Positions 11,060 to 18,991 of a DNA stretch of 64,000 nucleotides are shown in pieces. The stretch comes from a virus, in the IMG/VR virus record IMGVR_UViG_3300037042_002125, positions 124,001 through 188,000 of that record; one strand, 5' to 3'. A program made the position numbers and the translations under genes. Positions within the stretch are counted from its first letter, which is position 1, and every line of letters begins with the position of its first letter. Below the pieces are notes generated by a model. The model was not told the DNA's origin. It did not search any database and was given only the letters and a program-made list of their open reading frames with translations.

Positions 11060-14000
11060 ATGATACTCCAGCTAACTTATGCCGGTCGTTTACTCCTTGA
11101 TGAGAACCCGACTACCTTGATAATCACGCGAGCTGACTTCGGTAGTGATTACAATTACACATTGCCTCCTAATCCTACAGGATTGTCTGGAACTCAGGTA
11201 TATAGTGCAAACGTTGTTTGGTATCCTCAGGTTGTTGATCCAAATACGCTTCGCTATGTTCTTCGTTTAGACGCATCTGTGTCCTCTTTCCAATTTGGCG
11301 AAGTTGCTATCTACAACGGCGCAACACTGGTAGGTGTAGCGGTAAATGCTACACTGCTTGACAAAGTGGGTCCTAGTGGTGGAGATTCAGGACAGACATT
11401 TAGCCTGTCCTTCTTCATTGATTCAACTCCAGGTCAAACCTATTCTGTAGTCGATACGCTTAACGCAAAATTGACTGCAATGTTCCCTAAGGTGATGGTT
11501 CCTGATCTGCTTACTCCTCCTGCTGCCAATGATAACAATGCCTTCATTGTATATGGTCAGTACATTACAGATGTGCCTTACATGGCTTTTGCTGATCCTA
11601 CTGGTAAGTGGGGGTTCAGCTCTAAGCCATCTGTGTACATAACAGGTACCGTTGCTACTGTTAGTGCCAACAACATCACTAGCTCTGACATATCAGGTCA
11701 CTACTCTGGAGCAGCCGCCGATTTGATTGTCCAGTTTGTATCTGGCGCTAACAGAGGCTACTGCAGGCAGTTGAGTTCTGTATCTGCAACTGAATTGACA
11801 TGGGCGACCCCTTTGCTGACCTTGCCAAGTGCAGGTGATATATTTATCATCGTAGGTCCCCAGCTTGCTAGTGGTAGTGGTTCAGGTCCAACTGGTCCAA
11901 CAGGCGCAGCCTCTCATACAACAGGCCCAACAGGTTCAGCTGGTACAGTAGGTCCAACAGGTCCAGGCGGAACCGGTCCCACTGGAGCAGCCTCAACGGT
12001 AACAGGCCCAACAGGTTCAGCTGGTGTTAACGGTGCAACAGGTCCAACGGGAGCCTCCTTGACAGGTCCCCAAGGTGCTGCTTCAACGGTAACAGGTCCT
12101 ACTGGTATAAAAGGTGCAACAGGTGCAACAGGTTCAGCTGGTACGAACGGTGCGACAGGCCCTACTGGCGCTTCTCTTACTGGTCCCCAAGGTGCTGCGT
12201 CTACAGTCACAGGCCCAACAGGTTCAGCTGGTACGAACGGTGCAACAGGTCCTACAGGCGCTTCTCTTACTGGTCCCCAAGGTGCCGCCTCAACGGTAAC
12301 AGGTCCTACTGGTACTGCTGGTGTTAATGGAACTACTGGCCCTACAGGTGCCTCTATTACTGGACCCTCTGGTACTGCTGGTACTGCTGGTACTCATGGG
12401 TCTACAGGTCCTACTGGCTGGCCAGGTGCGGATTCAACTGTAACAGGACCTACAGGTTCAACGGGCGCAGGTGGCGCGACTGGACCTACAGGCTTGTCGT
12501 TAACTGGTCCAACAGGTGCCGTAGGTGCAACAGGTGCTGCATCAACTGTGACAGGTCCTACTGGTATTGAGGGTGCTACAGGCCCAATTGGAAATACTGG
12601 GCTTCGAGGAGCCACAGGTCCCACAGGTTGGCCGGGTGCCGATAGTACAGTAACAGGCCCAACAGGGACTCAAGGTGCAACAGGAACCACAGGTCCAACA
12701 GGTTGGACAGGTCCTTCTGTTACAGGTCCTACTGGTGCAGCATCCACAGTCACTGGACCTACAGGGGCGTCCCTTACAGGTCCAGCAGGCACGTCGTTGA
12801 CAGGCCCCACTGGCGCGTCTGTAACAGGTCCCACAGGAGCAGCCTCGACAGTCACAGGTCCTACAGGGTCTGGTGGGTCTGCAGGTCCTACTGGTGCATC
12901 ACTTACAGGCCCTACTGGTCAAACTGGTGCAGCATCCACAGTCACTGGGCCTACAGGTGCTCAAGGTCCAACAGGTTGGACAGGTCCTTCTGTGACAGGT
13001 CCTTCTGTGACAGGTCCTACTGGTGCAGATAGTTTTGTTACAGGTCCCACTGGAGCCACTGGTGATATTGGTGCAGGTGGTCCTACTGGTGCAACAGGCG
13101 CTCAAGGTAATTCTGTAACAGGACCAACAGGTTCAACCGGTGCCGATAGTACAGTCACAGGACCTACTGGCTCAACAGGAGCCTCTCTTACTGGCCCAAC
13201 TGGGGACACAGGAGCTCGTGGAGCCACAGGTCCCACAGGTTGGCCGGGTGCCGATAGTACAGTAACAGGCCCAACAGGGACTCAAGGCGTAACTGGCCCC
13301 ACAGGCTTGTCTTTGACTGGACCTACTGGCGCCTCTCTTACAGGACCTACAGGTTCCGCTGGTTTGGATTCAACAGTCACAGGGCCTACTGGCTCCTCTC
13401 TTACTGGCCCCACAGGTCAAAAGGGTGCAACAGGACCTACAGGTACAGCAGGTTTAGATTCTACAGTTACAGGACCCACTGGTAGTCAAGGCGATGTGGG
13501 TACAACAGGCCCCACGGGTTTGTCTTTGACAGGCCCCACAGGATCAACTGGCGCAGCATCTACTGTGACAGGCCCTACAGGTGCTCAAGGTCCAACAGGT
13601 TGGACAGGTCCTTCTGTGACAGGTCCCTCGGTCACAGGCCCAACAGGTGCAGATAGTACAGTCACTGGACCTACTGGAGCCACTGGTGATATTGGCGCAG
13701 GTGGACCTACTGGTTCTACTGGCCCTCAAGGCAATTCTGTTACAGGTCCAACAGGTTCTACCGGCGCAGCTTCAACCGTCACTGGCCCAACAGGTCATAC
13801 TGGACCCTCTGTAACTGGTCCCCAAGGAGCAACTGGAAGCACTGGCCCAACTGGTTGGCCAGGTGCTGACTCCACTGTCACAGGTCCTACAGGAGCAGCC
13901 TCTACGATTACTGGACCTACAGGTTGGACAGGGCCAACAGGCGCTGACTCTACTGTAACAGGACCCACTGGTTCCCAAGGTATTGAGGGAGCCACTGGAC

Positions 14001-17000: not shown

Positions 17001-18991
17001 CAGGTGTCAATGGATACTTAATTGACAATCCAGGAGCAGGTTATGTAGATGGTATCTACCCTGTCGTTGAGCTTGACTACGTTAGTGGTACCTCCCCCCA
17101 AGTGTTGCCGACCGTGTACGTTGATATTCAAACTGGCTCCTTGGCTAGTATCAACGTAATTACGCAAGGTGCAGGAATTGACTTGACAACAGTGTTTACT
17201 ATTGCCAATACCAAGCTTGGAGGTACAGGCTCTGGTATAAACTTGACTATTGATGCATTGGCTAGCGGTAGCAGCAACATTGCTCTTGGAAGTGGGACAA
17301 TGTGTTCTAATAGAACCGGACAGCGGAACGTAGCATTGGGAGGAAACTCCCTAAGGGGCAATATTGCTGGAAATGGTAATACCGCTCTTGGTTATGGTGC
17401 GTTGGGCAGTTCTTACGGATTTGGCAACCTCGGTATAGGAGAAAATGCAGGTTGCAACATAACCACAGGCGTTAACAATACAGTAATAGGTAATCTGACT
17501 GGTGCCTCTGGTTGCGTCTGTACCATACTCATTGGTGCTGGAACCTGTGAGCGTGTCCGTGTTGACAATGGTGGTCTGTACGTCAACAACGTTGGACCCT
17601 ATCCTACGTCTGCTGGTTGCGCGTCACTTGACGCCAACAACAACCTCGGGATCGGTACTGGGGCGTTGGCGTCCAACACAACAGGTACGAACAATCTTGC
17701 GATTGGTATTTGCGCTCTAGGACTAAACACCACCGGCAGTAATAACACCGCCCAAGGAAACAATGCGCTACGAAGCAACACCACCGGCAACCATAACACC
17801 GCCCAAGGATTCAATGCGCTCTACAGCAACACCACCGGCAGTACTAACTTCGCCCAGGGACCACTGGCTCTCTGCTCCAACACCTCTGGCAGTAATAACT
17901 TCGCCCAGGGACCACTGGCGCTCTCCAGCAACACCTACGGCAGTAATAACTTCGCCCAAGGATACAAGGCACTCTACGGCAACACCACCGGCAGTAATAA
18001 CACCGCAATAGGATTCTGTGCGCTCCGCAGCAATACAACGGGTAACCAAAACTTTGCATCTGGCTGCTGTGCCCTAGGTTGCAATACTATCGGAGGATTC
18101 AACACTGCGATTGGGTGCCAAGCACTTCAATATAACACCAGTGGTGTCCACAACGTCGCAATAGGAGCCAGTGCGATGAGTTCTAACACAACAGGTAGCA
18201 ACAACATCTCTATTGGATATTGGGCACTGTATGGAAATACTTCAGGTAGTTGGAACACGGCGATGGGTCGTTTAGCTCTCGCAAACAATACCATTGGCCA
18301 CCACAACATTGCTCAAGGCTACAGAGCACTTGGCAACAATACGACAGGTAGCCGAAACATTGCGATAGGCGAATGTGCCGCTACACTCAACTCGACTGGA
18401 TATCACAATATCGCAGTTGGTGGGCGGTCACTATACGGCAGCACCTCAGGTTATGGGAATGTCGCGTTTGGTCAGTGTGCTTTGCATAACAATGCTACTG
18501 GCTGCCAAAATACGGCTATTGGTTACAACGCAGGCCTCCAGAATAGGGGAGGCTCTAATAACACCTTCGTTGGCAACGGTGCATCTGGTATTGCCGCAGC
18601 TTGTTCCAACACGATCACTCTCGGTAACGGGTACATCACCACTATCCGCGCCCAAGTGACCTCGATAACGGCGCTGTCGGATGCACGGGATAAGAAGGAC
18701 ATTGTTGACATTCCATTGGGTCTTGAGTTCTTGCGCCAAGTGCATCCTGTCAAGTTCACTTGGAACATGCGTGATGGCTCCAAGGTTGGTCAGGGGTACG
18801 CTGGATTTATTGCCCAGGAACTGAAGCAGTTGGTTGACAGCTACGCGGTAAAGGACTGGATGGAGTTAGTCATCAGTAACGAAGACGAAAGCCGATACGA
18901 AGCGGCCCCGGGTAAGCTCTTGCCAATCATCGTCAAGGCGATTCAGGAGCTTGCCCAGAAACTCGACGACCACATCGCCAAAGGACACTAA
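11060..18991 (+). CDS. Giant collagen-like tail fibre with YadA-head-like repeats and S74 chaperone domain
   Basis: A 2643-residue protein. Residues 1-275 form a baseplate-attachment domain, closely similar to that of the fibre at 53411 (ITRADFG, PPNPTGL, NTLRY, FGEVA). Residues about 276-1674 are Gly-X-Y triplets, mostly GPTG-based and Thr rich, with one non-collagen break at about 992-1038. Residues about 1675-2530 are repeats of the type [13 protein letters not shown], as in trimeric autotransporter heads, split by two related Gly/Tyr modules. The C-terminus has the intramolecular chaperone of Peptidase_S74: S2540-D-A-R-D-K2545 is the self-cleavage Ser-Lys signature, followed by [24 protein letters not shown]. 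In known S74 proteins the chaperone drives trimer folding and is then released; cleavage before S2540 is predicted. It is probably the long receptor-binding fibre. Confidence 0.9.
11885..16080 (+). repeat. Collagen-like Gly-X-Y repeat array (GPTG units)
   Basis: About 1400 residues of uninterrupted Gly-X-Y apart from one insert near 14036-14172. Typical modules are [28 protein letters not shown] and [15 protein letters not shown], shuffled in varying order. Near-identical DNA blocks recur, for example the GGTTGGACAGGTCC and TCTGTGACAGGTCC segments, showing internal duplication and recombination. The antisense frames read as long Pro/Val/Gly open frames and are shadows of this array. Confidence 0.95.
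17726..18031 (+). repeat. Six near-identical 51-bp tandem repeats coding YadA-head-like units
   Basis: Units start at 17726, 17777, 17828, 17879, 17930 and 17981, each of 17 codons (AACACCACCGGCAGTAATAA...). They encode [11 protein letters not shown]-x-x-A-L-x-S. Conservation at the DNA level is far higher here than in the flanking protein-level repeats, so this block was recently amplified. It is Cys containing in places (ALCS). Confidence 0.9.

Follow-up and report, generated by a model that had tools for sequence, protein, structure and literature searches.

The gene at positions 11060 to 18991 (plus strand) of the DNA analyzed here, positions 124001-188000 of the 222,078-bp (222 kb) IMG/VR virus record IMGVR_UViG_3300037042_002125 ("the window," 64,000 nucleotides), encodes in a single open reading frame (ORF) with an ATG start a 2643-amino-acid (aa) fibre made up, in order, of an N-terminal anchor, a collagen-like part, 17-residue head-like repeats, and a C-terminal S74 chaperone. 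We regard it as probable that this protein is one of several large trimeric tail fibres of a PaBG-like jumbo phage and that the threonines (Thr) of its collagen are O-glycosylated by a dedicated adjacent cassette of two glycosyltransferase (GT) genes, GT1 and GT2. These genes, which an initial annotation of the locus did not mention, are its most informative part. The combination of collagen, head repeats, and S74 domain makes a large mosaic fibre of a familiar type and is not exceptional; the linked, putative glycosylation cassette is what is worth following. We also lean, somewhat less firmly, toward a broader proposition, namely, that tailed phages possess collagen O-glycosylation cassettes of their own, which coat the Thr residues of virion collagen fibres and whose GTs belong to a clade shared with Bacillota collagen genes and separate from the PaBG-type GTs.

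The GT1 gene lies 335 bp from the fibre gene and converges on it from the minus strand, past a terminator-like hairpin (-24.1 kcal/mol, z = -3.8, with TTTTCTT after it). GT1 and GT2 are 33% identical to each other and are the sole matches in the record to glycosyltransferase family 2 (PF00535). The DxD motif of GT1 is invariant in its relatives, and its PDB matches include engineered tetratricopeptide repeat (TPR) proteins.

We used GT1 and four relatives as queries and scored collagen-like ORFs within 1.5 kb; controls were windows of the same loci, which are not independent within a locus, so that the Fisher P values serve as guides. The best bacterial matches were nearly all from Bacillota (46-53% identity), and a collagen-like ORF lay within this distance in 58 of 69 non-redundant bacterial loci versus 21 of 727 controls (3%; Fisher P ~1e-58), at a median of 86 bp and always upstream on the same strand. 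Among viral relatives, the corresponding counts were 24 of 52 loci versus 154 of 753 controls (20%; Fisher P ~8e-5). Collagens adjoining GT1 relatives are rich in Thr at the Y position of the Gly-X-Y triplet. When fibre loci were taken without regard to GTs, both that had Thr-Y collagens had a GT1 relative right behind the collagen, and none with Ser-Y or Ala-Y collagens did; the numbers are small, and L021 and L030 have nearly identical GTs. In the tree, the PaBG-type GTs fall outside the clade (96/97), and GT1 groups, together with a GT from phage contig L114, with Bacillota proteins (90/86, not starred). Collagen-like ORFs were found within ~9 kb of none of the five GTs of PaBG, NCTB, Lu11, HRDY3, and Yoloswag, which are 24-35% identical. 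On the 345-kb viral contig L114 (positions 4695-11107), two adjacent GTs, one of them 55% identical to GT1, neighbour a Thr-rich collagen ORF of 1414 aa that runs on the opposite strand.

The closest characterized precedent comes from Clostridioides difficile, in which the gene for SgtA (358 aa, GT-A plus TPR) lies beside bclA3 and the enzyme, in vitro, adds O-linked N-acetylglucosamine to Thr in peptides from the collagen region (PMC7157674). The sgtA-bclA3 pair has a layout like that of the window, a GPT-rich collagen gene next to a GT of ~360 aa (GT-A plus TPR in SgtA, putatively so in GT1), but BclA3 is a spore-surface protein and the activity there is proven, whereas the window encodes a virion fibre and the activity is predicted. 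From synteny, the tree, and this precedent, we infer that GT1 O-glycosylates Thr. In the literature searched, which did not cover subscription papers, we found no report of phage GTs linked to phage collagen.

Several points weigh against glycosylation of the fibre. GT1 is near or below the Pfam cut-offs (21.1 bits against 23.3 for PF00535, with TPR under its cut-off); the GT genes lie on the opposite strand and outside the fibre operon; for half of the viral GT1 relatives, no collagen was detected up to 1.5 kb away; the frequent interruptions of the collagen may locally prevent a stable triple helix; and the likeness of GT1 to SgtA is one of size, putative domains, and gene layout.

An unlikely but credible alternative is that the fibre is unglycosylated and that the GTs are morons altering the host surface (lipooligosaccharide [LOS] or wall sugars, for example, as a superinfection block), DNA, or another virion protein. 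PHROG places the GT1 family under moron/host takeover as a beta-1,4-glycosyltransferase, and the relative in PaBG is annotated as an LOS glucosyltransferase. The opposite-strand location also looks like a cargo site, because in BcepSauron the stretch that separates the fibre gene from the lysis genes likewise carries minus-strand genes. For GTs of collagen-bearing actinophages, moreover, published proposals are that they protect DNA or exclude superinfection (PMC10202952). However, the nearest clade is found in Bacillota, most of which lack LOS, directly beside Thr-rich collagen genes, and GT1 and the PaBG-type GTs do not group together; the Bacillota synteny points away from both suggested actinophage roles. 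A scan of the GT region for sigma-70 promoters and terminators did no better than on shuffles.

The Pfam Collagen family scores 118 bits on the fibre, and residues 276-1684 contain 285 strict Gly-X-Y triplets, or 855 residues within ~1400. GPT is the commonest triplet (121 of 285), and the Y position is occupied by Thr in 196 (69%), by Pro in 9, and by Lys in 4. Four-glycine windows number 146, versus a shuffle mean of 8.9 and maximum of 21, an enrichment in Gly-X-Y far beyond chance. Triplet runs are short, the longest having 9-10 triplets, and the stalk is broken by 83 interruptions, 40 with a Gly-to-Gly spacing of 7 (GADSTVT type) and 41 with a spacing of 5 (GASLT/GPSVT). Inserts similar to the one that divides the stalk (residues 989-1038, without a Pfam match) occur in the collagen of another contig, L008. 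Internal duplication of the collagen repeats, in units of ~200 and ~600 nt, has been followed by mostly synonymous divergence (dN/dS of 0.07-0.17), so the collagen reading frame is under selection that maintains the protein sequence.

The two kinds of interruption alternate (56 alternating neighbours versus 40.5 expected, P = 0.0004). This suggested a register-keeping design, which we do not claim: the array arose as units holding both kinds were duplicated, and it holds its cumulative register no more closely than shuffled arrays do (P = 0.11).

Taking 0.286 nm per residue, we obtain a length of about 245 nm from the strict triplets and of 403 nm from the full stretch. The initial annotation had described a Gly-X-Y array of about 1400 residues, for which a triple helix would measure roughly 0.4 µm, together with YadA-head-like repeats; a single continuous helix of that length joined to a YadA-type head we judge very improbable. 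The ~1400-residue collagen-like span stands and Foldseek weakly links the repeat block to YadA (1p9h, probability 0.28), but the array is not continuous, with ~80 interruptions and no run of more than 10 triplets. Since interruptions are this frequent and strict triplets cover fewer than ~1400 residues, 0.4 µm can serve only as a maximum, and the stalk is more probably kinked and jointed. Interruptions can perturb a triple helix and create protease sensitivity (PMC10191275); the missing long Gly-X-Y run limits the claim of a single helix, not membership in the interrupted collagen-like proteins. The head likewise survives only as an analogy: the repeats are head-like, but their period is 17 rather than the 14 of YadA (self-identity of 0.51 at period 17 and 0.02 at 14; shuffle maximum of 0.15), and the repeat block matches no Pfam family, YadA included, even at E up to 10, for which reasons we rejected membership in the YadA family. 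Relatives have an invariant Gly every 17 residues in this block, and a monomer model places one short strand in each turn, with a predicted local distance difference test (pLDDT) score mostly >90. The 836-residue block contains 23 cysteines, compared with one elsewhere in the protein, and they favour a few repeat positions.

It is improbable, too, that the collagen-like part forms no triple helix and serves as a flexible Gly/Thr-rich linker that is unfolded for the most part. The shortness of the triplet runs and the lack of a detected hydroxyproline route would suit a linker; against it stand the strong selection acting at the protein level, the trimeric neighbours at both sides, and the phage protein EPclA, which in recombinant, hydroxyproline-free form makes a triple helix with a melting temperature of 42°C.

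The C terminus is by sequence and predicted fold a genuine S74 domain. PF13884 (Peptidase_S74) matches residues 2540-2592 (E = 8e-9; 36.1 bits against a cut-off of 22), and the dyad, S2540 (codon 18677-18679) and K2545 (codon 18692-18694), has its Ser and Lys invariant in 35 of 35 relatives. A Ser plus Lys(+5) dyad was identified by mutation in MYRF (S587/K592; PMC8326128) and assigned from structure in T5 pb1 (S1264/K1269; PMC4690869), and the spacing here is the same as in both. Foldseek retrieves the chaperones of MyRF (7dc3) and endoNF (3gw6) at probabilities of 0.96-1.0 and 3gud_B at 1.0, with E-values near 0.1. A phmmer search of the S74 part against the PDB returned nothing; known S74/fibre proteins were reached only by profile and fold searches. 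Self-cleavage before S2540 is predicted.

Residues 1-265 are read as a virion anchor, as homology suggests. They are 58% identical to a 650-aa paralogue encoded at 53411 and 27-30% identical to annotated tail fibres of BcepSauron (gp288), Motura (gp114), and Xanthomonas phage phiXF1 (phiXF1_136), which have the anchor in common but are shorter (763-949 aa) and lack collagen. The domain is present at 38 IMG/VR loci, where the distal fibre parts are mostly unlike. PF12571 (phage tail-collar fibre N terminus) is matched by three of five aligned anchor relatives (best, 6e-14), while the window protein itself gives no match. An AlphaFold model of the anchor (pLDDT of 88) has phage baseplate and tail proteins as its top Foldseek matches, with low TM-scores, and a profile search against the PDB gave nothing credible. 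Contig L063 is 100% identical over residues 1-264 and stops there, just short of the repeats, so the exact repeat number of the 2643-aa fibre depends on assembly and should be read with caution. A 2146-aa fibre elsewhere (L089:10001-16441) has the same anchor (51% identity) and an end that looks Hint/intein-like (..LLCHN..) instead of S74; this end has no Pfam match.

The initial annotation's single 2643-residue ORF is open from its ATG, and its domain calls, the S74 chaperone among them, hold with the corrections given above. Its view of a trimeric, predicted self-cleaving fibre is well supported by the tail-fibre anchor, the S74 dyad and fold, and the position of the gene within a baseplate/fibre/lysis cluster.

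In the mechanism that we propose, the anchor would attach the fibre to the virion, the stalk would consist of short triple-helical rods joined at the regularly placed breaks, and the 17-residue repeats would form a distal trimeric beta-roll. The S74 domain would trimerise the chains and then cut itself off. The collagen would do without hydroxyproline, since Pro is scarce in Y and no 2OG-FeII_Oxy_3 hydroxylase was detected; instead, the Thr residues of GPT triplets would carry an O-linked sugar attached by GT1 in the host cytoplasm, which GT2 would perhaps extend or methylate.

Table 1. Features of the fibre locus and related genes (positions in the window)
Feature	Positions	Strand	Basis
N-terminal virion anchor, residues 1-265, divergent phage tail-collar fibre N terminus	11060-11854	+	Homology
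Collagen-like stalk, first part, residues 276-988	11885-14023	+	PF01391 E=1.1e-34, triplet/interruption census
Non-collagen insert in stalk, residues 989-1038 (~50 residues)	14024-14173	+	Sequence
Collagen-like stalk, second part, residues 1039-1683	14174-16108	+	Triplet/interruption census
17-residue head-like repeats, residues 1684-2515, with inserted domains at ~1747-1836 and 1984-2064	16109-18604	+	Period 17
S74 intramolecular chaperone, residues 2540-2643	18677-18988	+	PF13884, dyad, fold
86-aa ORF, candidate fibre accessory protein	18993-19253	+	Starts immediately after fibre stop codon
Terminator-like hairpin separating fibre genes from converging GT genes	19267-19316	+	Folding energy, shuffle z
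GT1, 373-aa family 2 glycosyltransferase with TPR-like C terminus, proposed collagen Thr O-glycosyltransferase	19326-20447	-	phrog_13126 E=2e-98
GT2, 532 aa, methyltransferase-like N-terminal part (motif only) plus GT1-related family 2 domain	20789-22387	-	phrog_13126 E=1e-47 over 198-516
650-aa paralogous fibre: same anchor, head-like repeats, S74, no collagen	53411-55363	+	Sequence comparison
204-aa ORF, C-terminal GPT collagen stretch	56176-56790	+	11 GPT triplets; PHROG tail-fibre matches

The three-part architecture is not unique; we discarded its uniqueness on finding the same combination in a protein of 1908 aa encoded elsewhere in this genome and, on other viral contigs, in L008 (1358 aa) and L009 (719 aa), whose collagens have mostly Ser in Y. 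Four S74 proteins are encoded in the record (2643, 1908, 1132, and 650 aa). The 1132-aa protein, outside the window at record positions 217412-220810 (minus strand), consists almost entirely of 17-residue repeats (48 counted) and ends in an S74 domain nearly the same as that of the 2643-aa fibre. Further GPT-collagen proteins outside the window, of 1908, 940, and 756 aa, are encoded at record positions 14614-20340, 11740-14562, and 23854-26124 (minus strand), and one GT pair could serve all collagens of the record, these distant ones included. Homologues of the 86-aa ORF, with identities of up to 53%, occur directly behind S74 fibre ORFs in ~20 viral relatives; a PHROG search with it gave no match.

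A baseplate wedge protein, endolysin, head maturation protease, and large terminase are encoded in the window. The terminase is nearest those of NCTB, GR7B, PaBG, BcepSauron, and Motura (35-37% identity), and megablast of 20 kb (window 30000-50000) against 50,697 phage records found no near-identical genome; therefore, the record represents an uncultivated jumbo phage that has PaBG, BcepSauron, and Motura among its distant relatives. The terminase ORF (window 43909-47622, 1238 aa) contains an intein with PF14890 (Intein_splicing) and a LAGLIDADG domain, and a type IB topoisomerase (PF01028) is encoded at window 58272-59957.

Parts of the fibre have counterparts in known systems. The side-tail proteins EPclA and EPclB of Escherichia coli O157 prophages are likewise trimeric phage fibres with a collagen stalk, Pro mainly in X, and no hydroxyproline, but Lys/Arg, Ala, Thr, and Gln predominate in their Y position, recombinant EPclA showed no glycosylation of Thr, and neither S74 domains nor 17-residue repeats are reported for them (PMC3368898). 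The L-shaped fibre pb1 of T5, endoNF, and MYRF share the trimerising, self-cleaving C terminus with its Ser plus Lys(+5) (PMC4690869, PMC8326128); unlike them, the window fibre has a different, longer stalk and 17-residue repeats ahead of the chaperone. Mimivirus also combines collagens with a collagen-glycosylating enzyme, L230 (PMC9614988), but L230 acts on hydroxylysine, and we rejected Mimivirus-like hydroxylation here: the record has no match to the hydroxylase family PF13640, and Pro and Lys are rare in Y (Lys in 4 of 285).

Phage collagens are usually viewed as passive spacers and phage GTs as modifiers of DNA or of the host surface. A clade of GTs that accompanies Thr-rich collagen genes, in phages as well as in Bacillota, predicts glycoprotein virion fibres and offers enzyme/substrate pairs for producing glycosylated collagens. 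If this prediction is true, the PHROG label "beta-1,4-glycosyltransferase" hides a widespread phage collagen-modifying enzyme, and the finding would bear on collagen stability in the absence of hydroxyproline and on the adhesion of virions to surfaces.

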